The position numbers and the translations under genes are program-made. A stretch of DNA of 25,554 nucleotides from a virus: IMG/VR virus record IMGVR_UViG_3300040808_000709, positions 1 through 25,554 of that record. One strand, 5' to 3'. The first letter of the stretch is position 1, and each line of letters begins with the position of its first letter. Shown in pieces: positions 1-19,800 of this stretch. Below the pieces are notes generated by a model, which saw only the letters and a list, made by a program, of their open reading frames with translations, was not told the DNA's origin and made no database searches.

Positions 1-620
1 CCTTGTTCTATATAGTGTTTATAACTAAAATCGAGAGTAATATTTTTGTAGTTACTAGTTTCGTAATCTGCATGAGATCCTAACATCCATTGATTGTGCT
101 GGTGTCTGCCTAGGTCTCTAAAAGATAGCATTAAATCGTTTTGCCAATAATCGCCATCTTCAGGAAGTATCTCGGCTTTATACTCTTGGGGCAATGCCCA
201 AAGTTTTTTATCATTCTGATTTTTAAAATCCGCTGAAAATCTCGATTCAATATCGTGTACGTGTCTATTTACATCATGCCAAAACTTTGGCTGAGGGTGT
301 ATTTCATTTTTATAAGTATCGGTCAAATAAACCCATTTTTTATGCGTAGCATTTAAAAATTTTTGATCAAGTATTCTAGGTGAAAACTCAAACATAGATG
401 CTTCGCCATTTGTTCTCTCAGAAATAAAATAGTTTGCCTGAGAAATTGTGTTGTTTAATTCTTTAATTTTTTCAGATACAATTTTAGCTGTAGAATTATT
501 ACATGTATACTTGTCATTAATATTGTTATCAAACATATAATCAAACCAGCGTTCAATTACTTTAGCAGGATTGGGTTCTAATTCCAAAACGTCTCCTGAT
601 TTATAAAAAACAAATTTCAT
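1..620 (-). CDS. Hypothetical protein, 3' end cut by the left window edge
   Basis: An open frame of 206 codons starts with ATG at 620 and reads without a stop to base 1, so the C-terminus lies outside the window. Its start overlaps the stop of the upstream radical SAM gene as ATGA (617-620), a typical translationally coupled junction. The N-terminus reads MKFVFYKSGDVLELEPN. The protein is rich in aromatic and charged residues, with no signal peptide or membrane segment. Near the visible C-terminal end are DYWQNDLML and GRHQHNQWMLG, a His/Trp-rich stretch that could be functional. I do not recognise the family. Position and overlap place it last (so far) in the operon with the radical SAM and glycosyltransferase genes, so a role in the same process is likely but unproven. 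Confidence 0.8.
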   Translation of the reverse strand, partial: MKFVFYKSGDVLELEPNPAKVIERWFDYMFDNNINDKYTCNNSTAKIVSEKIKELNNTISQANYFISERTNGEASMFEFSPRILDQKFLNATHKKWVYLTDTYKNEIHPQPKFWHDVNRHVHDIESRFSADFKNQNDKKLWALPQEYKAEILPEDGDYWQNDLMLSFRDLGRHQHNQWMLGSHADYETSNYKNITLDFSYKHYIEQ

Positions 621-1948
621 TTTTTTAATCCTTTGTACCACTCGCTAAATTCTTTAGGAAAAACATCTTCTATATTTTTGTTTTTCCTTTTAGCATATTC
701 ATTAGTAAATGCAAGAAAATCACTACGTTTATTTTCCATTGTATCAGTATCTTCCTCGCTTCTGTCTACAGTTCTTAAGTATGTAGCAAGTCTTTTAACT
801 TGATTTATTTCAATATTAGACAACCCCTGTGTGCGTTCTACCCAATCTGTTAGCTCTTGTGCTTTAGAAAGTTTTAATTCAGTTGGCAATATGTTTACAT
901 TTTGAAAACTAGGAAATCTTAAAATATTTAAACTCATATGAAACTGATGTCCATTAAACTTTTTTCTAAGTTCGAGCATTTCATCCATAAATTCTGTTAG
1001 TGTCCATACACTCATTGCACTTATAGTTAACATAATATGTATCATTCTATATTTGCCATCTTTAGCAAACTTAACTAAATTTTCTTTCCATTGATTATAA
1101 TCTAATCCGGCTCTTACAAATTCTGCATGTTCTCCAACTGCTTCACAACTAGTATACAAATCAAAATGTTTAAACTTTTTGCTAGATTCTATAAGTTTGT
1201 TTAGTCTTGATTCGTCCATTATCATGTTTGAATTTACAGCAAAATCAAAATTCGTATCTTGGCATTCTTCAAGCAACTTCCAAAACCAAGGGCTTCTAGC
1301 AGGCTCGCCGCCTGTGACTCTAAGTTCAGTTAGATTATATTTTAAACTATCGTGAAACCATTTAAAAAATGCATCAACGTATGGATTGTTTTCATTTTTG
1401 TTGCCAAACGGCATTGCATGTTCTCCTGCATTGTGGTACGTTAATGCACCATTAGTTTTCATATCAGGATATTTGCCGTTTGTTTTTATATCGTTAGCCC
1501 ATGTACTACTAAACTCTGCATTACAGTAAGAACATTGTAAATTACATAAGTTATCAAAACTAATTTCTAATGTTTTAGGGTCGATATCTTTTAATCCAAT
1601 TTCCTTTAAAAGTCTAATATCTTCTTCTTTGTAAATATGACTTTTAAAAATTCGATCACTAAAAACATCATTGTCTCTATTATTTTCTACAGTCCAACAA
1701 TATGCACACTCTTGGCACTGTATTCCGTTCAACATTTCTTCTCTGCGCTGTTTCTTTTCCTGTGTATTATGTAATGCAGATGGATTTTCCATTATGTCTT
1801 TTAAAGGAATATAATGTGCTGGCGGCAAGTGACAGCTTGCGGTCCTACCGTTACCTAGCCAGATTGTTGCATTATACCATTTAGCTGCACAAAAACTAGA
1901 GCTAATTTCGTTTATAATATCAGATGTATCTGCTAGGGTTCTTTGCAT
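617..1948 (-). CDS. Twitch-type radical SAM protein (second of a tandem pair)
   Basis: 443 residues. The radical SAM signature CNLQCSYC gives C135, C139 and C142, the CxxxCxxC ligands of the [4Fe-4S] cluster that cleaves S-adenosylmethionine. VTGGEP at 211-216 is the usual SAM-contacting GGE motif. The N-terminus carries further cysteines, C20, C39, C78, C81 and C84 (CAYCW), and a SCHLPPAH motif. The layout matches the 'twitch domain-containing radical SAM' family known from marine T4-like phages (recalled). The substrate is unknown; related SPASM/twitch enzymes modify peptides or small molecules. The first codons overlap the end of the paralogous upstream gene by 16 bases, which suggests coupling. 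The 452-residue neighbour has its three cluster cysteines at exactly the same positions, so the two are clearly duplicates that have diverged. Catalytic residues look intact. Confidence 0.92.
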   Translation of the reverse strand: MQRTLADTSDIINEISSSFCAAKWYNATIWLGNGRTASCHLPPAHYIPLKDIMENPSALHNTQEKKQRREEMLNGIQCQECAYCWTVENNRDNDVFSDRIFKSHIYKEEDIRLLKEIGLKDIDPKTLEISFDNLCNLQCSYCNAEFSSTWANDIKTNGKYPDMKTNGALTYHNAGEHAMPFGNKNENNPYVDAFFKWFHDSLKYNLTELRVTGGEPARSPWFWKLLEECQDTNFDFAVNSNMIMDESRLNKLIESSKKFKHFDLYTSCEAVGEHAEFVRAGLDYNQWKENLVKFAKDGKYRMIHIMLTISAMSVWTLTEFMDEMLELRKKFNGHQFHMSLNILRFPSFQNVNILPTELKLSKAQELTDWVERTQGLSNIEINQVKRLATYLRTVDRSEEDTDTMENKRSDFLAFTNEYAKRKNKNIEDVFPKEFSEWYKGLKK

Positions 1949-3291
1949 AAGTTATAAAACTCCTCTAGCTCTGGAAATGTGTGATGAAAGTTTTTATTGC
2001 GTCTAATATCATACTCGTTAACAAAACTTAAAAAATCACGACGTAATGTATTAAGCCTGTCAGACGTGTGTTCTAAATACATGTAATCAACCATACGTTC
2101 TAATTGATCAACTTCGGCGTATGTTAGACTATCATAACCGTCCCATTTTCCTTTTTCTTCAATTAACTGTCGTACTTCGTGAGCAAACTTTTGTTTTGTG
2201 TTTTCGTCTAGTAGCCTCAACGATAAAAATTCAGGAAATCTTAAAGTATTAGTCATAAACTGTACTTTATTAAATGATGCATTTTTATTATATTTGCCTC
2301 TAAGTTTCAATAAGTATCTAATAAAGTCTACATAAGTTGTAACACTTGTAAGATTCACTGTAGTCATAATAGCAACAATGACATCGGTGTTGTCTAGTAC
2401 TTTTTCTAAATTAGAAGTCCACTTTTGATAATCTAATCCATCTCTGATATATTCGCCACATGCACCAATAGCTTCGCCGCTAGTAAAAAATTGAAATTCT
2501 CGTGTGTTCTTAGATATAGCATTTGTTTTTTCGATAATTTTATCTATAAATGTATCTGCTACACAAAGATTTGTATTGATAGCAAATACTAAATCTTTAT
2601 TAGGATTAGATTCGATATAGTCTATCATCTTCCACACATCTTTACTAAGTAATGGTTCGCCGCCGGACAGTCTTAGTGTATGTAAATTATCGTATAATTC
2701 TGGCCACCATTCCCAAAATGCTTCTACATATGGATTGTAGTCTCTATGATTGATCGGCATTTTGCCTTCTTTTTCAAACCATTCGAAATTATTAAATCTT
2801 TCGCTAGTAGGATATGCACCATATGTTTTAATTTCTTCAAACCATTTGCTACTAAGATCAGGTGCGCAGTATGCACATTTAAAATTGCACACATTAGAAA
2901 AAATTATTTCTAAATATGCAGGATTAACATCACCTGTTCCTGTTTTAAGAACTTCTTCTATTTTTGGCTTGGCCCAGCTAGTTCCACTTTTATAAATCCT
3001 GTCACTTATATGTCCTGCATCTTCTGCCTTCCAACAATATTCACATTCAGGAGGCCGTTTACCTTGCAGCATCATTTTCATTTGTTGTTTTTTATGCTGA
3101 GTATTGTGTAATGCTCTAAAGTTATTTTTTAATTCCTCCATAGGAATTTTGTGCGGCGACGGATGGTGACAACTATGATTATAACCATTTTGCAGATACA
3201 ATGTAGTTTGATGCCATTTAGCTAAACAAAAACTAGGACTAACATCGTCTAGCATATTTTGCACTGCTATATATTTTTCTTGTTCGTTCAT
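1933..3291 (-). CDS. Twitch-type radical SAM protein (first of a tandem pair)
   Basis: 452 residues, ATG at 3291. The cluster motif CNFKCAYC gives C135, C139 and C142; LSGGEP at 208-213 is the SAM-binding motif. N-terminal cysteines C22, C41, C83 and C86 (ECEYCW) align with C20, C39, C81 and C84 of the downstream paralogue, and SCHHPSPH with SCHLPPAH. The stretch FRALHNTQ near residue 58 is also shared (SALHNTQ). The fold is a partial TIM barrel by family; the C-terminal third is helical and charged. It follows the DGD glycosyltransferase-like gene after 10 bases and overlaps the next radical SAM gene. Its ribosome binding site is weak (AATAAACGACAAATA before the ATG), so it probably relies on coupling. 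Substrate unknown. Confidence 0.92.
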   Translation of the reverse strand: MNEQEKYIAVQNMLDDVSPSFCLAKWHQTTLYLQNGYNHSCHHPSPHKIPMEELKNNFRALHNTQHKKQQMKMMLQGKRPPECEYCWKAEDAGHISDRIYKSGTSWAKPKIEEVLKTGTGDVNPAYLEIIFSNVCNFKCAYCAPDLSSKWFEEIKTYGAYPTSERFNNFEWFEKEGKMPINHRDYNPYVEAFWEWWPELYDNLHTLRLSGGEPLLSKDVWKMIDYIESNPNKDLVFAINTNLCVADTFIDKIIEKTNAISKNTREFQFFTSGEAIGACGEYIRDGLDYQKWTSNLEKVLDNTDVIVAIMTTVNLTSVTTYVDFIRYLLKLRGKYNKNASFNKVQFMTNTLRFPEFLSLRLLDENTKQKFAHEVRQLIEEKGKWDGYDSLTYAEVDQLERMVDYMYLEHTSDRLNTLRRDFLSFVNEYDIRRNKNFHHTFPELEEFYNLCKEP

Positions 3292-3301
3292 TATTTGTCG
3301 T

Positions 3302-4216
3302 TTATTCTGGATCTATAATAAATTGCTGATTAGGATTACGACTAGGATTCTGATACACTGTTTTAAAGAACGCACTTTGGTCAGCATTTAGACATTCTAC
3401 AGCAATAGGTAAGTCTAATTCGTGCATTAATTTATCGCCTAATTCTTCTGTTTGATCGTCTATATCAGAAATATCTTTATTGTCCCACAATTCGTTCAAA
3501 TAATCAAAATCACGAACATTTACATAGTCCCAATCTGTACACATTGTTTTGTACAATCCTTCTCTAGCACCATGTATTGCCCAACGACCATTTTCTACAT
3601 CGGCGCCAACCATTAACCAAATCCAAAGACGGTGCAAGTTTTTCCAATGTCCTCTTAAAAATTCTTCTTTTGTTGGCTTAGCACCTTGGTCAAGCGCCAT
3701 CTTAACACCTTCTCTGAATCCTGCACGCCATGCTTGTTGCGGTGTTGCATTATTATATACATCACTATACCAACTGTTTTGTTGTATATAATTTAGATCC
3801 CAACAAAAATCTACTTGTGCATGTATGTTGTCCGGATCTGCATTTTCATGTGTGCGCATGTTAAGCACATATTCTTTAGGCCAACATTTTAAACCGCCAT
3901 TGCCGTACATTAGGCCATTAATTACATTCTTTCCGCACCAACTAATAACACTTCTTTCAAGATCAGCGTGTTCTGCAAAGTCCAGCTCTTGCTCGAAAAA
4001 CTTAGGATGTACAATATTATCACCGTCAACTGTGATAAATCTATCTGTTTCTGACAATTTTGCACATGCTTTGTGTGCTGCATCACTTCCTTTTACTCCG
4101 TGAACACGTTTTGCCCACGGGACTTTGCTACATAAATCAGCAAAGTTTTTTTCTGCGTTTGGTTCATCATAACTCAAATATATAATATCGTAATCGAGAA
4201 CTCGAAATTTAGTCAT
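3302..4216 (-). CDS. Glycosyltransferase-like protein with DGD motif
   Basis: 304 residues. The N-terminus (DYDIIYLSYDEPNAEKNF) looks like the first beta strand and loop of a GT-A Rossmann domain. FITVDGDNIVHPKFF at 60-74 carries a DGD at 64-66, the position expected for the metal- and nucleotide-sugar-binding DxD. MYGNGGLKCWPKEYVL near 103-118 resembles an acceptor-side loop. The remainder is helical and Trp-rich. No signal peptide or membrane segment, so a cytosolic enzyme is expected. I recall similar proteins annotated as family-2-like glycosyltransferases in marine T4-like phages; donor and acceptor are unknown. Its start overlaps the preceding 198-residue gene by 8 bases and a purine-rich AAGAGAG lies upstream. 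Glycosyltransferase identity is inferred from motif and context. Confidence 0.72.
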   Translation of the reverse strand: MTKFRVLDYDIIYLSYDEPNAEKNFADLCSKVPWAKRVHGVKGSDAAHKACAKLSETDRFITVDGDNIVHPKFFEQELDFAEHADLERSVISWCGKNVINGLMYGNGGLKCWPKEYVLNMRTHENADPDNIHAQVDFCWDLNYIQQNSWYSDVYNNATPQQAWRAGFREGVKMALDQGAKPTKEEFLRGHWKNLHRLWIWLMVGADVENGRWAIHGAREGLYKTMCTDWDYVNVRDFDYLNELWDNKDISDIDDQTEELGDKLMHELDLPIAVECLNADQSAFFKTVYQNPSRNPNQQFIIDPE

Positions 4217-4805
4217 TTATTTCTCTCTTTGCATAAGATACAAGTCTTCTATTAGTATATACACTATATTTTTCTAAATCAAGCTCTTCTTGGCTATCAA
4301 AATCAATGTCTATTGTTTCTTTGTCAGTCAAGTCTTTTAAACCTATGACAAAATGTCTATAAAGTACATTAGGATTATTTTTTTGTGTAACACTGAACCA
4401 GAGTGTTTCATCTAGTATAGTTGCATGTATATTATTTTGTCTTGTAAGATTACTGTCTATAGATAATTGCCAACATTTTTCTTTATTATTTTTTGTTACT
4501 AATAATTGTGCATTATTGCCATCTTGAATTTGGTGTATAAGATTACTAACGTCGAGAACTATTTTGTCGTTCTTGTGTACAATAAGATAATTAGACTTTT
4601 TTAAGTCATAAACTACTTTATGATCTATGAGATTCTTTGTACCTTCGATAAATTTTTCAACTTCATTAAATGTAGTAGAAAAGTATGTATCTAAATGCGG
4701 TTTTTCGTCTGTAGTAATAGACTGTATTTGACCAGTTTTTTTATCAAAATAAACTTTATAATAAGTGACAACGTGTTTTGATTGTTTTGGAATTCGCCAG
4801 CGCAT
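4209..4805 (-). CDS. Hypothetical phage protein between glycosyltransferases
   Basis: 198 residues, ATG at 4805 directly after the stop of the upstream gene (TAAATG, no gap). The sequence alternates short beta-strand-like stretches (VTYYKVYFDKKTGQIQSI; YLIVHKNDKIVLDV) with charged loops, and contains KEKCWQLSIDSN and NPNVLYRHFVIGL. No catalytic motif, membrane segment or signal peptide is visible. I believe homologues occur in other marine T4-like phages, with no known function. Its fixed place between two glycosyltransferase-like genes, abutting one and overlapping the other, suggests an accessory or structural partner of the same pathway; this is inference. Confidence 0.82.
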   Translation of the reverse strand: MRWRIPKQSKHVVTYYKVYFDKKTGQIQSITTDEKPHLDTYFSTTFNEVEKFIEGTKNLIDHKVVYDLKKSNYLIVHKNDKIVLDVSNLIHQIQDGNNAQLLVTKNNKEKCWQLSIDSNLTRQNNIHATILDETLWFSVTQKNNPNVLYRHFVIGLKDLTDKETIDIDFDSQEELDLEKYSVYTNRRLVSYAKREIND

Positions 4806-5636
4806 TTAAACTCCTACTAACATTTCATATGTTTTTATAGTACGGTCATCTAAAAAGTTATCCTCTGTATAATGAAAAATATCTTTTTGTTTATAGTTAC
4901 CAATAAATAATTCTGCATCGTCTGTAAGATATGACCCTACTTCCATTTGCCAGTTTTCTTTTAATCCAGACCAGTTTTGTATATTTGCTTTCATGTGTAC
5001 AAACATTGGTGCATACTTGCTAGAATCTGTAATTAGTGCTTCACAGTCAAGTATCGCAGTTGCAAGACTGCTACTTATGTCCATACTTGCAAAATTTTGT
5101 AGATTCATATTGTCTAAATTAAAAAACTCACTGTGATTATTAACAATAACATCTATTGTCTTGTAAAAATCAAATGCTAGTTTACTTTTTTTAAAATAAT
5201 GAAGTCCGTAATACACATTTGGAAGATTATATTTGTTAAGTTTTTTCCTATAAAACGGATTTGTTACAATTTCATCTCTGTATGTTTTAACATTATTACA
5301 GATCCAAAAATCGTATTTTTTGAAATATTCATCCCATCTCGATAGATCGTTTAACACTAACATATCTGTATCAATTACTAGAGAATCGTCAAAAGGACAT
5401 GCATGTATGATTTTAAATCTGTTGTGTATCTTCCAATCGTATTTGTGTGCTGCATCGCCCCATGGAATTTCAACTATGCTATCAAAAAGACTTGCATACT
5501 TGTCAGGTACTGTATCATTAGTAATTAAACAAATTCTGCTGTTAGGATTAGTATACTTAATGCTCATAGCAGAAACGCATGCCTGCTGTACATAGTCTAC
5601 ATCTTTACTGTTCTGCGCTAGCATTGTAAAATTCAT
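4806..5636 (-). CDS. GT8-like glycosyltransferase (DTD motif)
   Basis: 276 residues. The pattern is that of a GT-A fold nucleotide-sugar transferase: an N-terminal strand with YVQQACVSAMSIKYTNP, then RICLITND at 34-41, and FDDSLVIDTDMLVLNDL at 82-98 with DTD at 89-91, the metal/sugar-nucleotide ligand set. Further on, YYGLHYFKK (142-150) fits the acceptor-side strand and MFVHMK (211-216) carries the His expected near the C-terminal metal site in GT8-like enzymes. Start choice: ATG at 5636 has a good AGGAG eight bases upstream. It overlaps the upstream paralogous gene by 32 bases. Cytosolic; donor and acceptor unknown. Probably acts on host surface polysaccharide, virion proteins or nucleotide-derived sugars (inference). 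Confidence 0.8.
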   Translation of the reverse strand: MNFTMLAQNSKDVDYVQQACVSAMSIKYTNPNSRICLITNDTVPDKYASLFDSIVEIPWGDAAHKYDWKIHNRFKIIHACPFDDSLVIDTDMLVLNDLSRWDEYFKKYDFWICNNVKTYRDEIVTNPFYRKKLNKYNLPNVYYGLHYFKKSKLAFDFYKTIDVIVNNHSEFFNLDNMNLQNFASMDISSSLATAILDCEALITDSSKYAPMFVHMKANIQNWSGLKENWQMEVGSYLTDDAELFIGNYKQKDIFHYTEDNFLDDRTIKTYEMLVGV

Positions 5637-6456
5637 TAAGAATTTCTCCTAAACTAAATTTATTCATTATATGTACATTCAACTCTTGGGTCTTGCTAAG
5701 GTAATATTCTCCAGGTTTTTTTGTTTTTTCTAAAAGTAGTGTAATCTTATCGTTGTTTATTGTGTGACAAAAATCTCTATCAGTAATATAATACTTTTTA
5801 CCTGGTAGCTGTTTAGCAAATTCTCCTTGTGCAAAACCATTCATAATATGTATGGCAATACTAAATGCAAAATCATTCCTATAAGTAGGATAGTTTAATC
5901 TGTACACGGATTTGTAATGAAACCAATTTTCTTGTATATGTTGTAATAGATCAAAGAACGTTTTGTTTGCTTGAGACTTTGTAAAATAAAATACTGTAGC
6001 CCAATAGAAGTCTATGCTAGTGTCACTTATTCTTTCGAACTCGTTTGTTTTAGGTGCGTCAATGTTTAGATTACAAGCATCTTTGTAAATTAAAAAATCT
6101 TCATCTACATCAAAAGCTTTTTTTAAACTATCATTAGAAATAATATAGTCGGTGTCCATCACTAAAGTTTTATCATAAGGCGACAAATTGTATGCTTGCA
6201 CCCTAGCATCGTTTTTAAATTGCGCTGTTTTATGATAATAACTGCCGCTGTGGAATTTCCGTGTATTTTTACGTCCTGCAGGATAATATATCACTTGATC
6301 AAAGTTTTTAAAAGACTTAGCGTGTTCTATATCTCCAGTCACAATACTGGTGGGCAAGCCCATATACTTGCTTATACGGGATGCAAGGAAATCTGCTTGC
6401 ATCACATAATCAAACAAATTGTTATTGTATGCAAATAACAAACATCCTTTAGTCAT
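5605..6456 (-). CDS. GT8-like glycosyltransferase (DTD motif), paralogue of the next gene
   Basis: 283 residues. LLFAYNNNLFDYVMQADFLASRISKYMG forms the first strand and helix. LSPYDKTLVMDTDYIISND at 91-109 carries DTD at 101-103, matching FDDSLVIDTDMLVLND in the following gene. YWATVFYFTKS (151-161) corresponds to the YYGLHYFKKS of the paralogue. The two enzymes therefore share the GT-A architecture but are strongly diverged, suggesting different donors or acceptors. The start overlaps the 115-residue gene by 8 bases and has only a weak Shine-Dalgarno (TTGGAT), which fits coupled translation. The C-terminus (KFSLGEILNEFYNASAEQ) runs 32 bases into the next gene. Substrates cannot be read from the sequence. 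Confidence 0.78.
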   Translation of the reverse strand: MTKGCLLFAYNNNLFDYVMQADFLASRISKYMGLPTSIVTGDIEHAKSFKNFDQVIYYPAGRKNTRKFHSGSYYHKTAQFKNDARVQAYNLSPYDKTLVMDTDYIISNDSLKKAFDVDEDFLIYKDACNLNIDAPKTNEFERISDTSIDFYWATVFYFTKSQANKTFFDLLQHIQENWFHYKSVYRLNYPTYRNDFAFSIAIHIMNGFAQGEFAKQLPGKKYYITDRDFCHTINNDKITLLLEKTKKPGEYYLSKTQELNVHIMNKFSLGEILNEFYNASAEQ

Positions 6457-6796
6457 TAATTATATCCAAGATACTCTTTTTTATTTTTATATCGTTATAA
6501 TCATTTATATATCTATTAGAAGCTTGTTTAAAACAATCAACTAAATCACTTGTAAAAGATCTAAGATCTTCTACCCTACAAGGCAAATCATTTGAGTCTA
6601 TTAGTACTGCTGATTCTTGGTCTAAGTAAAGCAGCGATGTACAAAAAGAAATTAGTTCCGGAGTTGCTAAGAACTTAGAACCATTATAGTAAAAATCAAT
6701 ACTAGAATAAAATTTTTCTTTAAGATTGTTTTTTTGTGTTTGATGTGTAAGCATTAAGTTACTAAACTCTAATGCTTTCGCCAGTTTTTCGTCCAT
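6449..6796 (-). CDS. Small conserved phage protein, first gene of the early operon
   Basis: 115 residues, ATG at 6796 with a strong GAGGAG six bases upstream (6803-6808) and a very short leader from the sigma70 promoter. The N-terminal half is helical and charged (KALEFSNLMLTHQTQ); the centre holds FLATPELISFCTSLL and SAVLIDSNDLPCRVEDLRSF. I recall similar small proteins of unknown function in marine T4-like phages (a FISF...VVDKN-type core). No enzymatic motif, signal or membrane segment. Being the promoter-proximal gene, it should be the most strongly expressed product of the block. It overlaps the glycosyltransferase behind it by 8 bases. Confidence 0.85.
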   Translation of the reverse strand: MDEKLAKALEFSNLMLTHQTQKNNLKEKFYSSIDFYYNGSKFLATPELISFCTSLLYLDQESAVLIDSNDLPCRVEDLRSFTSDLVDCFKQASNRYINDYNDIKIKKSILDIIND

Positions 6797-6802
6797 GCGA
6801 TA

Positions 6803-6808
6803 CTCCTC
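6803..6808 (-). promoter_or_regulatory. Strong ribosome binding site of the early operon
   Basis: GAGGAG, six bases before the ATG at 6796. Together with the -10 box at 6819-6824 this leaves a leader of roughly 15 bases, so translation should begin almost at the 5' end of the transcript. Confidence 0.75.
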
Positions 6809-6818
6809 AGTTTGTATA

Positions 6819-6847
6819 ATTATATACGAAAACTAGGATTTTGTCAA
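6819..6847 (-). promoter_or_regulatory. Perfect-consensus sigma70 promoter (early type)
   Basis: On the minus strand TTGACA (6842-6847) is followed by exactly 17 bases and TATAAT (6819-6824). Both hexamers and the spacer match the bacterial sigma70 consensus without a mismatch. The predicted start lies near 6812, about 16 bases before the ATG of the 115-residue gene. The -10 box sits in a short AT-rich inverted repeat (GTATA at 6814-6818 against TATAC at 6823-6827). Early promoters of T4-like phages are read by unmodified host RNA polymerase, so this block is probably transcribed directly after infection. The -35 box lies 3 bases beyond the stop of the upstream fibre gene. Confidence 0.88.
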
Positions 6848-6850
6848 CTA

Positions 6851-7900
6851 TTAAAATGCGTCTGTAATTTGTGCTGTAGGTGCTTCTTTGCCTAGTCCTG
6901 TAGCAGTTCTAACTTGTACTACACAGCTGATGGCTCCAGTTACATTTTCATCAACTTTAAAGTCAAATCCATCGCCGGGACTTTGATCATCACCGATATC
7001 ATTATCTAGATAAGTTAGGGTAAAACGTATTGTGTTAGTTGCTGATTGCCACGCTTCAATTTTAAATAAGTTTTCGCTGTACACACCGCTACCTGATTTT
7101 TCAAATACTAAAAGTCTATTTGGTTGTCCGTTGAATGCGTTCCAATTAGTTTCTGTGTTTATGTCGCTATATATACCACTTACTGCTGCATTGGTAGTAG
7201 CACTACCGCTGATTACTTCACTGCCGGTTACGCTTAATTTGTAGGTACCGCCTGTGTTAAGCATGGTTTGCCAAATTTCATCTTTTGTTGCAGGAGGAGT
7301 ATTTGTTTCATCACCTGCGATACTTGTGCCGCCGCTAAGTCTACTAGCAATTGTAATATATCCGCCGCTGTTAAACCAGAAACGTCTTTCTTCTGCGTTA
7401 GTCCAAGTAAGGCTAAATCCAAAAGTAAGTTCTCCGTTCCACGGAGTTGTTCTTCTTACACTGATAGGAGTAGTAATTTCTGACTGACCTGCGCCTACTA
7501 ATAGTCTATCATTTTCAATGTCTGCGGCTGCATTTTCAAAATCTAAAAAACCTTCATCTGTGTCAGTAGTAGCATCATCACTAGTATCACCTTCGTCTGG
7601 GCCTACATCACTAGCATATACGCCTATGATCTCACCGGTGTCAGGAGCATCTAGACCATCACTTGCTAGTGTCCAAGTAACCGGAGCACCTACCTGATGT
7701 TGTCTTGCTTTTACTAGATCATTGTATAATGCATCCATATCAGCAGCACGTATTAGATCATTGTCAACTTTAGTAGTGCTTTCTAATGGTATGCCGTAAC
7801 CTCTATTGCCAGTGCCGCTGGTACCAAGTATACGGCTTACACGACTCCTTATGGAGTTGTAAACACTTGCTGTAATTGTTTGTCCTAATCCTGCTGCCAT
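6851..7900 (-). CDS. Fibre-like structural protein, short paralogue
   Basis: 349 residues. It aligns by eye along its whole length with the first ~335 residues of the 933-residue protein upstream: TASVYNSIRSRVSRILG against DADDYNGIRNKILKVLG, then DMDALYNDLVKARQHQVG against DMDNLFEDLKTIRQHHLG, KDEIWQTMLNT (207-217, identical), KSGSGVYSEN, IRFTLTYLDNDIGDD and KVDENVTG. A 27-base identical DNA stretch underlies KDEIWQTMLN. It ends shortly after this shared module (GKEAPTAQITDAF), so it is the core unit without the Calx-beta and tip repeats. AGGA lies eight bases before the ATG. Homologues are virion fibre-like proteins in marine T4-like phages (recalled). It is the last gene of the late block, and no terminator follows before the early promoter. 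Confidence 0.85.
   Translation of the reverse strand: MAAGLGQTITASVYNSIRSRVSRILGTSGTGNRGYGIPLESTTKVDNDLIRAADMDALYNDLVKARQHQVGAPVTWTLASDGLDAPDTGEIIGVYASDVGPDEGDTSDDATTDTDEGFLDFENAAADIENDRLLVGAGQSEITTPISVRRTTPWNGELTFGFSLTWTNAEERRFWFNSGGYITIASRLSGGTSIAGDETNTPPATKDEIWQTMLNTGGTYKLSVTGSEVISGSATTNAAVSGIYSDINTETNWNAFNGQPNRLLVFEKSGSGVYSENLFKIEAWQSATNTIRFTLTYLDNDIGDDQSPGDGFDFKVDENVTGAISCVVQVRTATGLGKEAPTAQITDAF
7260..7286 (-). repeat. 27-base identical repeat, copy 1
   Basis: Identical on the DNA level to 10032-10058 and in the same reading frame; it encodes the KDEIWQTML core of the shared fibre module. The flanking bases are also similar but not identical. It marks the two genes as a duplication and could serve for recombination between them. 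Confidence 0.85.
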
Positions 7901-7912
7901 CCGTGTTTCCTA

Positions 7913-10714
7913 TTATGGTTGATAATCTACATCTAATCGCATACTCGAAGTTGCAACTACAACTTGATCGCTCTTTCGTCTTACTCTTAGTGCGCCAAAC
8001 ACACTGAGTACATCACCGTTGTAATTAGTATCTTCTAGTATCCAATTATGATTTTGACCTGCATCAAGCCAACCGTTACCAGCATCGGTAAAATCTCCGT
8101 CGGTGTTTGCTAACGGGTTGTTATGATCCCATTGTACTTCGTAATCACTTGCGCTGCCGCTTTGTAGCCATTGTACAGTGTTACCATTCGGTGGTGTGCC
8201 GGCGGCTTGAGTTCCATTGTACGATGTTCCGAAGTAACCAGTAGTTCCTACCCAATTAAATGTGGCCCTTGCAAATCCTCCTAGCGTTGCACCGCTAGCA
8301 TACTGTGAGTATGGACCTCCTAACACTACCGGTGCTACTGTATTTGTATTATCAATAGATAAGTTGATGTTTTGGTTTACATCATATACTGTGCCTGCAC
8401 CGATCTTCCTAATTTTTAGATTAATCACAACTGTGTCAGAAGCTTCATAGCCTGGATCGAGTATTTCTGCACTCAAACTACTATCTAACGAATACCAAGT
8501 ATTTGTTGATACAATATTAACGCCGCCACGAACAACTTGTAAACTACTTGCACTACCTGTAACAACAGTTACATTAGCCTCATAATCAGCTGCATTACCA
8601 TTAGGTAACCAATCAATAATATCAGCATTAGCAGGAACAAAAGTATACCCTTCTAAACCATAACCAGAGTCAACACTAAGACCTGTCAGGCCACTAGGTA
8701 ATAAGGTAAACCCGTACCCAGGGGGCGGCGATCCTGCTGAAGGTGGTGTTGCACCACTGGGTGCAGTTGCACTCCATGTGCTGTTGATTGCTTGTGCTGA
8801 CTCTGAATACTGTGCTTCTAGATCTACAGTTTGTACTGCTGAAGACTCTACAAAACTACCGTTACTGTCTGTAATTCTTACGTCAAAATATACTAAATTA
8901 GCTGTGGTTAGGCCTCTAGTTGCAGTGTCAACACTGCTGTCATCTGCTATCCATGTAAAGGTTTCACTGCCTGCATCTGGTATAGTGATATACTGGCTTG
9001 CTGTTTGTGACGGATTGCTGCTGCTTTCATTAGCATTTGTATTTTGTGTTCCAACTCTATACCTAGCTTCAACGGTAACTCCTGATCCGCTGCCGCCGCC
9101 GAAAGAAAGTCCGCCGCCTATATTAGTATACGTAATGTATCCTGTGTATTCTGTTGGAGACCCTGTTGATTCGTCAAATGTTCTAGAAGTGATTGCTACC
9201 CTGCTGTTAGCACTATCATTTGTTACTTTTACATCAGCAGTGGCTCTAGCACTTGTAACAACGCCGTCACCTACAACAAAACGTTGCAGATCACCCCATC
9301 CTGTATGCGGGACAGAAGCTGGCCAGGTGTTGACTCCTGCACTTAAACTAGTGTCTCGGATAATCACTTCCGCAGTGCCGCCTTGTCCGTTGTTGAGTGT
9401 AAGACTAAATGTTTCGTCACTGCCGTCTGTAAATGCGTCTGCTGTGGCAGTAAATGTAATAGTTCTTGTGTTACTTTGGATGTTAAAGTTACCTGTCAAA
9501 CTTGCGCCATCGATATCTTCACTTGTTACACCAGTGATAGTGTACGCTACATTCGTGCCATTAGGTATTCCTGTAGTACCAAGTGTAACGTCAAAAGTTC
9601 CGCCTTCGTTAACTTCTGTTACATCTGTACTTAGACTGTATGAATTTGCAGGTGTACTTCCTTCTAGTGAAGTGTCATATGTTGCACTAGGGGCAGGTAT
9701 ACCTAAAAATACATCGGGTGTCACTGATTCTATTACACTATAAATATCACCTGTAATTGATTCGTCTACTTTATTTGGATACGGATCGGAGGGTGTTCTA
9801 TCATCACCTGTGTCAGCATCTACAAATCTAATAGTAAACCGTATACTTCTTGAGTCAACTTCTCTTGCTTTTATTTCGTAGAAGTTTTCTGCATAAACAC
9901 CACTACCACTTTTTGTAAAAAGCACTTGATCACTTGTTGTCATTTGATAGTTACCAACTGCTGTTGCAGCAGTGCCGCTACCTGTGTTAGTTGTTCCGTC
10001 TCTACCAAATGTAATTGTGCCCATTGTGTTGAGCATGGTTTGCCAAATTTCATCTTTTTCATATGCAGGATCAGCTGGATATGTAGTAGTTTGGTCTCCG
10101 GCTACACTATTGCCGCCAATTAAACTTGCACTAATTCTTAGGCGTCCGCCTGCATTAAAGAAATATCGTCTTGCATCAGCACTGCTCCAGCGTATAGTTG
10201 TTTCATGATTTATTTCTGTTGACCAATCTGTAGTTCTAGGGTCTGTTACAAGATTGTCAATAGTAAAACTTCCTGCGCCAGGAAAACTAGTAGGAAAATT
10301 TATAGCAAATGCTTGTGCATCTGCGGCAACACCATCAAAATCTACAAAACCTTCGCCTTCGTCTGCTGTTGCATCTGCACTTGTGCCGCCGGCACCTATG
10401 TCAGCAGCTTCTGCACCAATGAATTCTCCCGAGTCAGGAGAGTTAAGTGCATCTGCATTATTTAAACTCCACACAAAACTAGGATTTGTAACAGCAAGTC
10501 CTAAATGATGCTGTCTTATGGTTTTGAGATCTTCGAATAAATTATCCATGTCAGCAGATGTAACTATATCACCTGCTGATCTGGCACTACTTTGTAGGCT
10601 TCGGCCATAGCCTATTTTTTGATTTACACCGTCGTCGCCTAAAACTTTTAAAATTTTATTTCTAATACCGTTGTAATCATCTGCGTCAATTATGTTACTA
10701 ATTGCTATGGCCAT
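7913..10714 (-). CDS. Long fibre-like adhesin with Calx-beta-like domain and tandem tip repeats
   Basis: 933 residues. Residues 1-335 are the module shared with the 349-residue downstream paralogue (DADDYNGIRNKILKVLG; KDEIWQTMLNT at 220-230; KSGSGVYAEN; RFVDADTGDDRTPSD). Residues ~357-455 look like a Calx-beta domain: VTEVNEGGTFDVTLGTTG then ADAFTDGSDETFSLTLNNG, a calcium-binding beta-sandwich found in adhesins. Residues ~470-640 are beta-rich with a glycine-rich loop (GGGLSFGGGSGSG). The C-terminus holds two related units of about 90 residues, at ~698-790 (IDWLPNGNAADYEANV) and ~846-933 (VQWLQSGSASDYEVQW). No signal peptide, as usual for phage fibres. GAGGA lies six bases before the ATG. Role: distal fibre or receptor-binding protein, inferred from architecture and location. 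Confidence 0.85.
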   Translation of the reverse strand: MAIAISNIIDADDYNGIRNKILKVLGDDGVNQKIGYGRSLQSSARSAGDIVTSADMDNLFEDLKTIRQHHLGLAVTNPSFVWSLNNADALNSPDSGEFIGAEAADIGAGGTSADATADEGEGFVDFDGVAADAQAFAINFPTSFPGAGSFTIDNLVTDPRTTDWSTEINHETTIRWSSADARRYFFNAGGRLRISASLIGGNSVAGDQTTTYPADPAYEKDEIWQTMLNTMGTITFGRDGTTNTGSGTAATAVGNYQMTTSDQVLFTKSGSGVYAENFYEIKAREVDSRSIRFTIRFVDADTGDDRTPSDPYPNKVDESITGDIYSVIESVTPDVFLGIPAPSATYDTSLEGSTPANSYSLSTDVTEVNEGGTFDVTLGTTGIPNGTNVAYTITGVTSEDIDGASLTGNFNIQSNTRTITFTATADAFTDGSDETFSLTLNNGQGGTAEVIIRDTSLSAGVNTWPASVPHTGWGDLQRFVVGDGVVTSARATADVKVTNDSANSRVAITSRTFDESTGSPTEYTGYITYTNIGGGLSFGGGSGSGVTVEARYRVGTQNTNANESSSNPSQTASQYITIPDAGSETFTWIADDSSVDTATRGLTTANLVYFDVRITDSNGSFVESSAVQTVDLEAQYSESAQAINSTWSATAPSGATPPSAGSPPPGYGFTLLPSGLTGLSVDSGYGLEGYTFVPANADIIDWLPNGNAADYEANVTVVTGSASSLQVVRGGVNIVSTNTWYSLDSSLSAEILDPGYEASDTVVINLKIRKIGAGTVYDVNQNINLSIDNTNTVAPVVLGGPYSQYASGATLGGFARATFNWVGTTGYFGTSYNGTQAAGTPPNGNTVQWLQSGSASDYEVQWDHNNPLANTDGDFTDAGNGWLDAGQNHNWILEDTNYNGDVLSVFGALRVRRKSDQVVVATSSMRLDVDYQP
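7916..8179 (-). repeat. C-terminal tip repeat, unit 2
   Basis: Encodes residues ~846-933 of the 933-residue fibre. The unit opens with VQWLQSGSASDYEVQW and closes with RVRRKSDQVVVATSSMRLDV. It parallels unit 1 (WLxxGxAxDYE at the start, a Trp-containing middle, a final xLRxRxxxxxxV strand pair). Divergence is high, so the relation rests on pattern rather than identity. Confidence 0.55.
8345..8623 (-). repeat. C-terminal tip repeat, unit 1
   Basis: Encodes residues ~698-790 of the 933-residue fibre: IDWLPNGNAADYEANV, then TNTWYSLDSS, then TVVINLKIRKIGAGTVYDV. It matches the layout of the final unit of the same protein. Such repeated beta domains are common at phage fibre tips and can recombine. 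Confidence 0.55.
10032..10058 (-). repeat. 27-base identical repeat, copy 2
   Basis: Identical to 7260-7286 in sequence and frame; encodes the same KDEIWQTML core within the 933-residue fibre protein. Confidence 0.85.
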
Positions 10715-12234: not shown

Positions 12235-12264
12235 CGTGTGCTTCCCCTAATATGTCTACTGTTG

Positions 12265-12272
12265 TATTTATT
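12265..12272 (-). promoter_or_regulatory. T4-type late promoter motif AATAAATA
   Basis: AATAAATA within CGAATAAATACA, 30 bases before the ATG at 12234 in the 41-base gap behind the 618-residue fibre gene. T4 late promoters are a lone TATAAATA -10 element read with gp55; marine T4-like phages tolerate a varied first base (NATAAATAN). The 12-mer CGAATAAATACA is identical to that at 16869-16880. It should drive the 497-, 933- and 349-residue genes. Confidence 0.8.
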
Positions 12273-16870: not shown

Positions 16871-16878
16871 TATTTATT
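16871..16878 (-). promoter_or_regulatory. T4-type late promoter motif AATAAATA
   Basis: AATAAATA within CGAATAAATACA, overlapping the stop codon of the VrlC-like gene (16874-16876) and 23 bases before the ATG at 16847. Same 12-mer as the second late promoter in the window. It should drive the ~200-, 697- and 618-residue genes. Confidence 0.8.
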
Positions 16879-19800
16879 CGGGCAACTTACTTATGCTTCC
16901 GCGTAAGAAATTACCTATATCATTTTTCAAATCTTTAATTGGAGTACCTTGTGGTCCCCATAATTGTCCTACTCTTCTTACAATTGTTACTTTTTGTTTG
17001 TCAGCCATTGCATTTGCAAGTACTAGTGTACTACCGTCTAATGTAAATTCTGGAGCAAGAGTAACATCTCCTTCTGGAGAATCTAGTTCTGCACCTATAA
17101 CAAATTTTTCTAGACTTGTTTTTCTTAGTCTAGTTCCTGCTGCAAATACTTCAAAGTCGTTAACACTATTAGGAACAAAATCTAGTTCAAAATCTGTTTG
17201 ACCTTCTATAGCTACAAAATTCTGTACAAGTGTTTGATCTCTGTAAGGAATATTTTTCTCTTTACCTGCTGGTTCTATTTCTGTTCCTGCAGGATAAACA
17301 TCTTTAATACCTGTACCAAGTGTTCCTCTACGTATTTGGCGTAATAGATTTCCATCTTTTACAAAGTATTCAATTCTTTCACCGTCAACAAAAATTATAC
17401 CAGGGACATTATTTCGTCTATCTGGATCTGGTAATTGAGAAGAGTCTACAACACTAATTCTTAGGTCATAACTATTTAGATCTTCAGCAAGTTCTATACC
17501 ATAATCGTTGTCAAGACGCTTGTAAGTATTCCTATTTAGAATATCTTTAAACTGTCTCCAAGCAATTCTCGGTGTCGAAACTGGAGCAGCAAAATGTATA
17601 AGATCGACTTTATCATCATCTAGTAATTCATTTTCTAGAAGCAATGTTCTGCCATCTTCACTGAGTGTGTAATCGACATTTGGCTGAAGCAATTCATTGT
17701 TTACAAATGTAACAACATACTGTGCAGCAGCAGCTGGTTGTGCTAGAAGAATTTTACCACCTTTAATGCTATGGTAGCTATTAAATTCTGCTGTACCGGC
17801 TGTTAAACTACTTCTTGCTACAGCAGTATAACTATATCTCTGCATGTTATTCACATCATGGTTAGTAAATGTGTAAATGCTTATGCTGCTTCCATCTGCT
17901 GGTGCTCCACCTACTACTGCATCAACTACATATCCTGATACGCCTGCTTGACTTGGATCGTCCTGTGCTGGTGTATTGCCATCTTGGAATATGCTTCTAA
18001 TTGTTGCAAGTGATGGTTTACTAATAACTGGTGCAATGTACGTATTGTGGAAAGCATAACCTAATGGGTTATTTGCTTGAATACCTGCTTGGGTACGCAT
18101 ATCATCTGTCCACTCTGGAGCAAGACTTCCACCGTCCCATAATTCTGTGTATTCAAACATACAGAAATTCAACAAGTATAAGTATTCTTTTGCGGCTACT
18201 TCAAATGCATCTGCGATTGTTTTCCAATCATCTGGATTAACAAGATAACCCGATGGATCCCACTTGCCGGCATCGTATGCTTCTTCCATTGCGGCATACA
18301 AATCACCTGTCTGCCAGTCAGCAGCTAAGAACTGATATAATTTTATATCATCTGCAGGTAAACCGTGCATATGAAGCGTGTGGAATACGTGTTCAATAAC
18401 TTCTTGTGCATCTATGTCGCCATCGCCGTAGCCATCGCCTGTTGAATTCAAATACCAAACCATATCATTTTGTACATGAGTATCAAACAGGTTAGTTAGG
18501 TTCCAATCAATAACGCCTTGGTCAGTTAGGAAGTTTGGAGAGTAATCTGCTCCTGCGCCTCTTGCTACTCTTTGTATAGTTGGTAAGCCTGCGTGATAAG
18601 TTCCTGTGTCGCCACTTAGTGTTTTGATTAAGTTTCTTTGGTATTCTTCGTTAATACCTGCGCCATTTGGATCTGTAAACAATTCAAACATACGTGCTAC
18701 TTTTTCTAACCACGCATCTGGAACTGCTGTTTGTCCACCTACTGTGCCAGCACCCATAACTCTTACACCATTAACAGTAACTTCGCGTTTGAAGAAATCA
18801 CTGCCATCACCTATAACGTCAATAATTGGGCCATTGTTGTATTCTGTATCTAATGTGCCATCATTTCTAATAGTTAGAAAATCATTATATTCAGCCGTCC
18901 AAGTTTGTCCTCTCAATGTGCCCCAAAGTTCATCTGCATAGACTTTATTTTCTACTGCATCAACTATCTTGGTTGAATCATCTCCAAACACTGAACCTTT
19001 AACATCTCCAGTGTGGTAACCTGTTGTATCGCCTACCAAGTTTCCAGTTACATTGCCTGTAACATCTCCAGTAATATTTCCTGTAACATTTCCTGTTAGG
19101 TTTCCAAAGAAGCCACCTGATGCATACATTTCGTTTTCCACTGCATCAACCATCTTGGTCGAATCATCAGCAAATACACTTCCTATTATATCAGTATTAT
19201 TATCAAAACTAAATGTAACCTTGTCAGTTGCACCGTCAGTTGTGATTACAATATTTGATCCTTCAACAAACTCAACTCTACCAGCAACAGAATTTGCTTC
19301 GAGTGATGTTTGACCAAACACATCGACGAATCTAAATGCATTACCTGCAGGAGCACCATTTGTTACAGTAACAATACCAGTTGCCGTATCAGTAAATGTT
19401 GTAATACCAGTTCCAGCCTGGACTTCAATTACACCAGTGTTTGTTAGTGTTAGTGCTCCAGTCGCCGTGCTTGTAATAATACCTACGCCTGCACTTCTTC
19501 CTGATGCTATTGCAGGCAATGAAGTTGAATTAGAAACACTTATGACACCCGTATTAGCAACTGTTATATTTCCAGTTGCTGAACTAACACTTACTCCTGA
19601 ACCAGCGGCTAATTGTGTAACACCTGTGTTAGCAATCGTAATACTTTCAGCAGCACTATCCACGGTCATTGAAATAGCACTACCACTTATCAAATTAAGT
19701 GTATCTACAAAATCATCTGCTACCACTCTATTACCACTATCAACCTGAACACTCTTAAAGAAAGTTTGATCGGGATTAATAATTAGGTTACCGTCGACAG

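Follow-up and report, generated by a model that had tools for sequence, protein, structure and literature searches.

A fibre-linked operon of glycosyltransferases and radical SAM enzymes in uncultured T4-like phages

The window, i.e., the whole stretch of DNA analysed here (25,554 nucleotides), is a 25.5-kb IMG/VR virus contig. Eight tightly coupled open reading frames occupy positions 3–6796 of its minus strand, and neighbouring frames either overlap by 8–32 nt or are separated by 0–10 nt. The operon is incomplete, in that its 3' gene, g0, runs off the contig end, and no minus-strand intrinsic terminator is listed within the module in the promoter scan of the window. The features are the following.

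3..641, minus strand: g0, conserved protein of at least 213 amino acids, cut by the contig end
617..1948, minus strand: g1, N-terminal-twitch radical SAM enzyme (NF033640), 443 amino acids, second of a pair
1933..3291, minus strand: g2, N-terminal-twitch radical SAM enzyme (NF033640), 452 amino acids, first of the pair
3302..4216, minus strand: g3, GT-A glycosyltransferase with a DGD motif, 304 amino acids, assigned from a fold model and the invariant motif
4209..4805, minus strand: g4, fast-evolving protein with no assigned fold, 198 amino acids, characterized by alignment
4806..5636, minus strand: g5, GT8-like glycosyltransferase with a DTD motif, 276 amino acids, profile match to glycogenin
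5605..6456, minus strand: g6, GT8-like glycosyltransferase with a DTD motif, 283 amino acids, paralogue of g5
6449..6796, minus strand: g7, 115 amino acids, predicted DUF4376/prefoldin-like fold (AlphaFold, Foldseek and likeness to prefoldin)
6819..6847, minus strand: early promoter of sigma70 type, TTGACA-N17-TATAAT, within the 54 nt that separate g7 from fibre gene g8
6851..7900, minus strand: g8, fibre-like structural protein encoded just before the module, its fibre role suggested by context
7913..10714, minus strand: g9, longer paralogue of g8 (context)
12264..12272, minus strand: late-type motif AATAAATAC, before structural gene g10

An earlier note on this DNA described eight coupled genes behind one perfect sigma70 promoter, and the reading frames, the junctions and the promoter match are all present. 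TTGACA-N17-TATAAT has this sole exact match in the window, where 0.01 are expected from shuffles, and a promoter with at least 11/12 matches precedes g7 in the upstream regions of 54 of 73 non-redundant relatives, where shuffles expect 0.15. The fibre genes further upstream in the relatives carry late-type motifs rather than an early promoter. The motif before g10 is not significant alone in the window; among relatives, 54 of the 61 regions upstream of g10 have a late-type motif, where shuffles give about 9%. In a minority of relatives such a late-type motif replaces the early promoter before g7, and early expression of the module, to judge from these motifs, is therefore probably typical but not universal. 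Expression with the late genes only, which the note had named as evidence against its proposal, is not what the conserved early promoter indicates, as far as sequence allows.

To see how the genes belong together, consider the 53 non-redundant loci that were picked by the DGD enzyme g3 alone. In all 44 testable loci the order is fibre, g7, g6, g5 and g3, with homologues of g8/g9/g10 preceding g7, and a radical SAM gene comes after g3 in 48 of 50; the families are thus not scattered singly, as they might have been had the note been wrong about their association. Downstream of g3, gene content differs widely between relatives. The module consists of two cassettes, a fibre-linked glycosyltransferase core and an exchangeable radical SAM array. 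In the freshwater group that was checked, the array is inverted and separated, while the core still lies directly behind the fibre. The same division appears in the divergences: that of the array is uncorrelated with those of the fibre (rho −0.02) and g3 (0.08), g7, g6 and g5 diverge together, and the divergence of g3 follows the fibre with rho 0.50, above the 0.23–0.34 for its neighbours g5–g7. Related islands add enzymes of nucleotide-sugar metabolism (a UDP-sugar dehydrogenase, epimerases and a dTDP-sugar isomerase) and also a methyltransferase.

The operon of the window is a compact copy of a module that recurs in many uncultured T4-like phages of marine and fresh waters. A g3 scan of the virus collection gave at least 599 matching stretches. 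Among the cultured phages of INPHARED, neither g2, g3 and g6 nor a consensus of g7 has a match, and relaxing E for g3 and g7 did not alter this; zero matches at an E of 10 is odd for a large collection, and the absence applies to INPHARED and this search tool only. Distant radical SAM relatives were recovered by other queries. A cyanophage identity was rejected, with no psbA in 18 large related contigs, and with gp23 and g13 nearest to those of jumbo T4-like phages that infect other hosts; cyanophage S-RIM12 shares 92% identity with the middle part of g14. Contigs L203–L206, L208, L209, L213 and L215–L217, from metagenome-assembled genomes, were considered as bacterial copies and rejected, their phage gene order marking them as mis-binned phage.

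The two DTD enzymes and the one DGD enzyme that the note called glycosyltransferase-like have real, family-conserved motifs. The paralogy of g6 and g5 is supported by an hhalign probability of 99.7%. Over its N-terminal 100 residues, which include the DTD at 89–91, g5 matches glycogenin by profile (E 3e-5), and D89 and D91 are at least 90% conserved in the family; g6 has a weak direct match to glycogenin (E 0.05), and its D101 and D103 are invariant across the family alignment. Thus g5 resembles the GT8 family, which includes glycogenin and the LPS sugar transferases, in its glycogenin match and its DXD motif, but it has no Pfam match, and here such enzymes stand as a tandem pair inside a phage fibre operon. 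In the PDB the g3 sequence profile gave only chance matches, and the c37 profile nothing useful; for g3 the fold search settled the GT-A assignment: the AlphaFold model (pLDDT 88, pTM 0.89) has PDB matches in Foldseek and VIA-align that are led by glycosyltransferases and include NTP-transferases, which share this fold. D64 and D66 are invariant across the family, and g3 is the slowest-evolving gene of the module. Its bacterial homologues lie away from fibres and adjoin other glycosyltransferases.

The two radical SAM paralogues of the note are likewise borne out. Against NF033640 (NCBIfam N_Twi_rSAM), with a curated cut-off of 170 bits, g2 scores 340 bits and g1 288 bits, over model positions 1–398 and 1–397, so both are clear members of a family that here forms tandem arrays in phage islands. 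The CX3CX2C motif of g2 reads CNFKCAYC, and its N-terminal part contains C22, C41, C83 and C86; in 25 sequences, C135, C139 and C142 of the motif are invariant, as are C41, C83 and C86, while C22 is at least 90% conserved. The g1 proteins form a supported clade separate from g2, and adjacent pairs have g2 before g1 in 14 cases and the reverse in 0. The arrays reach 21 family matches in one phage contig, some of them below the curated cut-off, and a Bdellovibrionia genome has 33. The array of relatives is closed by full-length, 266-residue homologues of g0 (41–44% identical to it), after which more genes follow. The g4 protein is only 57% identical to its counterpart in the nearest relative, and longer or unrelated genes take its place in relatives. 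Where dS can be estimated, the module is under purifying selection (dN/dS 0.04–0.25). No module protein has a 19-residue hydrophobic stretch reaching 1.6, and it follows from this absence of predicted membrane segments that the module encodes no flippase, polymerase or membrane lipid-glycosyltransferase.

The first gene, g7, was a "small unknown" in the note, a label that no longer fits, since a DUF4376/prefoldin-like fold, as in fibre chaperones, is predicted for it. Its AlphaFold model (pLDDT 90) finds a run of DUF4376 proteins in BFVD by Foldseek, from E 8.6e-4 and with TM by query of about 0.4–0.6, which is a match of moderate strength, and it resembles prefoldin beta with Z 8.2; the other VIA-align rows are middling and were left out. 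Pfam DUF4376 is not among the matches listed (for 25 of 32 families) for 31 g7 members, and with sequence HMMs silent g7 is not filed as a DUF4376 member. The gene starts 54 nt downstream of g8, and a fibre-like gene precedes it in 44 of 44 loci. In Alteromonas phage V22, the DUF4376 protein gp27 is a fibre chaperone by experiment, encoded just downstream of the fibre gene (PMC7289586). Like such chaperones (PMC7289586, PMC10579305), g7 is small, directly downstream of a fibre gene and similar in predicted fold; unlike them, it is shorter, has no sequence-level match, is the first gene of an enzyme operon with an early promoter, and diverges alongside the glycosyltransferases instead of the fibre (rho 0.69–0.74 with g6 and g5, 0.27 with the fibre). 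The idea of a dedicated chaperone of the adjacent fibre is weakened by this divergence. From the predicted fold, g7 is possibly a fibre chaperone or an adaptor between fibre and glycosyltransferases.

The explanation placed first, and held tentatively, is that cytoplasmic enzymes build a glycan and tailor it by radical chemistry, with the receptor-binding fibre of the phage itself, or some other virion protein, as the most likely acceptor. From an operon in the fibre, or host-recognition, island, soluble enzymes would build a short glycan that radical chemistry then tailors. Host sigma70 RNA polymerase would read the operon early, from the conserved promoter that separates g7 from the late fibre genes; g7, with its predicted fold, may hold or fold a fibre subunit and may recruit the enzymes; g6, g5 and g3, with their DXD motifs, would add sugars from nucleotide donors to the acceptor; and g2 and g1, with their cluster cysteines, would oxidise, epimerise or otherwise edit a sugar or a residue. 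In this way the enzymes would already be waiting once the late fibres are made. Since the array is swapped cassette-like between phages, the final glycan structure would vary. A fibre glycan is favoured by the linkage of fibre, g7, g6, g5 and g3, by a core that stays at the fibre, by the g7 fold, by the tracking of the fibre by g3, by the absence of membrane segments and by the nucleotide-sugar enzymes of related islands. Against it, early expression and nucleotide-sugar genes fit remodelling of the host surface equally, g7 diverges with g6 and g5 and not with the fibre, which is unexpected for a dedicated fibre chaperone, g7 lacks a DUF4376 sequence match, and bacterial g3 homologues lie away from fibres. 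The more specific proposal, a fibre-dedicated system in which g7, as a chaperone-like adaptor made early, and the glycosyltransferases glycosylate receptor-binding fibres and exchangeable twitch radical SAM arrays then edit the sugars into a chemical adhesin coat that can be switched rapidly, is doubtful. Of the dedicated modification pathway in the note, the meeting of sugar transfer and radical SAM enzymes beside adhesins stands; its function and acceptor are conjectural, and the array is exchanged apart from the glycosyltransferase core.

Remodelling of host-surface glycans comes close behind the fibre-glycan explanation and is a real possibility. Here, the early enzymes would modify O-chain or capsule precursors on host lipid carriers at the cytoplasmic face, so that superinfecting phages would lack a receptor or progeny would escape from debris; the radical SAM array would diversify the sugar. 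The conserved early promoter, the GT8-like g5, and the sugar dehydrogenase, epimerases, isomerase and methyltransferase of related islands all accord with this, as does Vibrio phage K566, where the gene for PagP, a lipid A acylation enzyme, is about 5 kb from a distant radical SAM cluster. The gtr serotype-conversion cassettes of temperate phages are likewise phage glycosyltransferases that alter host glycans. They depend on the membrane proteins GtrA and GtrB, whereas no membrane flippase or bactoprenol glycosyltransferase is seen in the hydrophobic-segment scan of the module proteins. Also against a host-surface role are the core that stays with the fibre when the array does not, in the freshwater group checked, and the late-type motif before g7 in some lineages.

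In an unlikely alternative, the module would be the phage version of a peptide or aminocyclitol pathway: the radical SAM enzymes would act on a protein or peptide, or produce a small molecule, and the glycosyltransferases would complete the product. It is suggested by one phage island with about 21 radical SAM matches, which also encodes a StrB1-like inosamine-phosphate amidinotransferase (PDB 1bwd, E 2e-55), a tryptophan halogenase and Asp/Asn beta-hydroxylases, and by a Bdellovibrionia chromosomal cluster with similar contents. The amidinotransferase, halogenase and hydroxylase genes are, however, absent from the window, and with module genes overlapping or separated by 10 nt at most, the coding strand has no room for the precursor peptide of a RiPP. 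Still less probable is that the genes only share a hypervariable island, their linkage marking where foreign cassettes are tolerated rather than one pathway; the exchangeable, independently diverging array and the variable content downstream of g3 would agree with this, but the fixed order in 44 of 44 loci, the dedicated conserved promoter, the co-divergence of g7, g6 and g5 and the never-reversed order of g2 and g1 would not. Least credible is DNA hypermodification, in which the DNA of the phage would be the substrate of the glycosyltransferases and radical SAM enzymes. Phage glycosyltransferases and early expression are typical of such a use, but g3 is GT-A and g5 and g6 are GT8-like, in contrast to the GT-B glucosyltransferases of T4, no base-modifying enzyme is seen in the module, and the fixed linkage to fibre genes is left unexplained.

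We know of no radical SAM enzymes in the virion glycosylation of mycobacteriophages, which are unrelated to the phages considered here. Their capsid and tail tube glycans have been linked to phage-encoded glycosyltransferases (Freeman et al. 2023, as cited in PMC12619734). Nearer is the host recognition cluster (HRC) of pelagimyophages, located between VrlC and gp14 in SAR11 phages, where glycosyltransferase and radical SAM cassettes have already been noted (mSystems 2020, PMC7029224), so that the "undescribed system" of the note is only partly that: the setting is in PMC7029224 and the operon itself is a new variant. The HRC resembles the window in its T4-like aquatic phages, fibre genes and glycosyltransferases (GT8 most represented), and its radical SAM cassettes differ between close relatives. 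PMC7029224, in its available portions, describes content, with no mention of a fixed g7-g6-g5-g3 order, an early promoter or a chaperone-like first gene. For the glycosyltransferases of these islands it proposes O-chain modification, which favours the host-surface explanation; HRC phages infect SAR11, and the host of the window may or may not be SAR11.

With at least 599 g3 matches in the virus collection and core genes for which the INPHARED search gave no relative, it follows that these aquatic phages are an abundant group with a heavy investment in the chemistry of this module. If the fibre is decorated, control of phage host range would gain a new layer, and if the host surface is changed, it would be superinfection exclusion by radical chemistry. 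Either way, the islands offer a natural collection of NF033640 radical SAM enzymes tied to defined glycosyltransferases, and the function of the NF033640 family thereby becomes directly testable.

The module occupies the minus strand of the window, a virus contig of 25,554 bases from IMG/VR, as eight co-directional open reading frames (g7 to g0 in order of transcription) from position 6796 to 3. Neighbouring genes overlap by 8-32 nt or lie 0-10 nt apart, and a gap of 54 nt separates the module from the fibre gene g8 directly upstream. The last gene is truncated by the contig end; in relatives it has its full length (266 aa) and is followed by more genes. The G+C content of the module is 32%, compared with 39% in the rest of the window. 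The sole exact match to the promoter consensus in the window, where 0.01 is expected, lies within the 54-nt gap and is the following:

6847-6819, minus strand, promoter TTGACA-N17-TATAAT

At least 11 of the 12 consensus bases are found upstream of g7 in 54 of 73 non-redundant regions (0.15 in shuffles), with a 17-nt spacer in nearly all cases and about 46-58 nt ahead of the start codon. Early-type sites of this quality occur zero or one time each upstream of g6, g5 and the further upstream genes g10, g11 and g12, and five times upstream of g3. A late-type motif containing TAAATA precedes the structural genes (g10, 54/61; g13, 21/35; g8, 14/35; about 9% in shuffles). Since a well-placed early site is absent from 20 of 74 g7 upstream regions, and 11 of those 20 have the late-type motif, the operon would usually, though not always, be under an early promoter in its relatives, and its early timing is what the motifs predict. 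An early-type promoter is also present in 12 of 73 regions upstream of homologues of g9, the longer paralogue of g8.

Relatives were gathered by scans with g2, g6 and g3, which yielded viral contigs of marine and freshwater origin; with g3, the virus collection gave at least 599 matching stretches. For a test set independent of gene order, loci were chosen by g3 alone among the matches listed, giving 53 non-redundant loci. In this set, and thus among the matches listed, g7-g6-g5 stand in order with a fibre-like gene upstream in all 44 loci with sufficient flank, the next gene is a radical SAM gene in 48 of 50, and each locus has one to seven radical SAM genes within 8.5 kb. In comparisons with close relatives, dN/dS is 0.04-0.25 where dS is unsaturated, and the genes so compared are under purifying selection. 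T4-type gp23 is found on 14 of 18 large related contigs, and psbA on none of the 18. Chromosomal relatives of g3 lie beside the same radical SAM families in Bdellovibrionia and beside other glycosyltransferases in Rhodobacterales. Elsewhere in the window, the middle 302 residues of g14 (16874-20404) are 92% identical to a baseplate protein of cyanophage S-RIM12, and because only this part matches, a mosaic gene is suggested.

The AlphaFold model of g7 (pLDDT 90) has a small alpha/beta core with two long helices around it. Among viral models, the leading hit of its structure search is an uncharacterised phage protein, followed by a series of DUF4376 proteins; the best solved structure is prefoldin beta, at a Z of 8.2, moderate for a helical protein. 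The DUF4376 protein gp27 of phage V22, encoded directly behind the fibre gene, is experimentally required for a functional fibre (PMC7289586; see also PMC10579305). Because g7 has no Pfam sequence match to DUF4376 among the matches listed, we label its predicted fold chaperone-like and no more specifically.

The g5 profile matches glycogenin, a GT8 enzyme (E 3e-5); g6 is a paralogue of g5 (hhalign 99.7%) with a weak glycogenin match of its own. Both DXD aspartates of g6 are invariant, and those of g5 are conserved to at least 90%. A sequence search of the PDB found no relative of g3, the model of which (pLDDT 88, pTM 0.89) is predicted to have a GT-A fold: PDB glycosyltransferases top both structure searches, with same-fold NTP-transferases among the matches, and both aspartates of the DGD motif are invariant across the family. 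The alignment of g4 indicates fast evolution. A family frequently found behind g3-like enzymes (L166:19860-20462 and homologues) resembles a SAM methyltransferase on visual inspection; its sequence search against solved structures gave no match.

With scores of 340 bits for g2 and 288 bits for g1 against a cut-off of 170, both belong to NF033640, the N-terminal-twitch radical SAM enzymes. All 25 relatives compared keep the CX3CX2C cysteines and three of the four N-terminal ones, and the remaining cysteine is at least 90% conserved. The two lineages form distinct, supported clades, and in neighbouring pairs g2 comes first and g1 second, 14 times against 0.

Such genes also occur in larger numbers. 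Behind the core of glycosyltransferase genes, a phage island roughly 47 kb long (L246-L248, contig positions 40-97 kb in the record of L165) has about 21 NF033640 matches. It also encodes an inosamine-phosphate amidinotransferase resembling StrB1 (PDB 1bwd, E 2e-55), together with a tryptophan halogenase, a nitroreductase, Asp/Asn beta-hydroxylases and an epimerase similar to GDP-mannose dehydratase. A chromosomal cluster in the Bdellovibrionia genome of L214 (L241-L242), with about 13 radical SAM genes within 30 kb, shares the amidinotransferase and Asp/Asn beta-hydroxylase content; three Bdellovibrionia genomes have 25-33 NF033640 matches each. The cultured Vibrio phages K566 and KVP40 have distant radical SAM relatives (about 23-26% identity), near a PagP gene in K566 and adjoining a QueC-like gene in KVP40; QueC-like genes are close to radical SAM genes in Bdellovibrionia, too.

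Sequence comparison indicates that the module is two cassettes, a glycosyltransferase core (g7-g6-g5 and g3) and a radical SAM array. To exemplify, the related locus L110 is 57-80% identical to the window from g8 to g3 but only 32-37% in the radical SAM genes, while L004 is 72% and 64% identical in the radical SAM pair and 34% in the GT8-like enzymes. One freshwater group has the array in inverted orientation and on the opposite side, yet its core still lies directly behind the fibre; g7 is preceded there by a late-type motif. In distance matrices of 51 close taxa, rho is 0.69-0.76 within g7-g6-g5, 0.50 for g3 with the fibre and 0.23-0.34 for g3 with g7-g6-g5, while the divergence of the first radical SAM gene shows no correlation with that of the fibre or g3; as the fibre alignments are partial, these correlations are indicative.

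That the host-recognition island of aquatic T4-like phages can carry glycosyltransferases and radical SAM cassettes is already known (PMC7029224). A literature search found no description of the operon as a fixed unit, the conserved early promoter ahead of it, its chaperone-like first gene, the two-cassette structure or the size of the radical SAM arrays.

Which acceptor the pathway serves can be stated only tentatively. We favour the phage's own fibre, because the glycosyltransferase core stays with the fibre, the g7 fold is fibre-chaperone-like, g3 diverges with the fibre and no membrane step is encoded (a membrane-segment signal was sought in all module proteins and none was found). Remodelling of the host surface is a nearly as good, if somewhat doubtful, reading: it is favoured by the motif-predicted early expression and by nucleotide-sugar genes, and PMC7029224 already proposes it for glycosyltransferases of this island in pelagimyophages. 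Related islands encode a UDP-sugar dehydrogenase and further an epimerase, a dTDP-sugar isomerase, a methyltransferase and GT2/GT7 proteins. Modification of a protein, peptide or small molecule is unlikely; that the genes are merely co-located in the island is improbable, and DNA modification more improbable still. Whether fibre or host surface is the acceptor, the favoured readings have a common core to which we give good confidence from the families and their neighbours, namely that the module would encode a soluble pathway building and tailoring a glycan.
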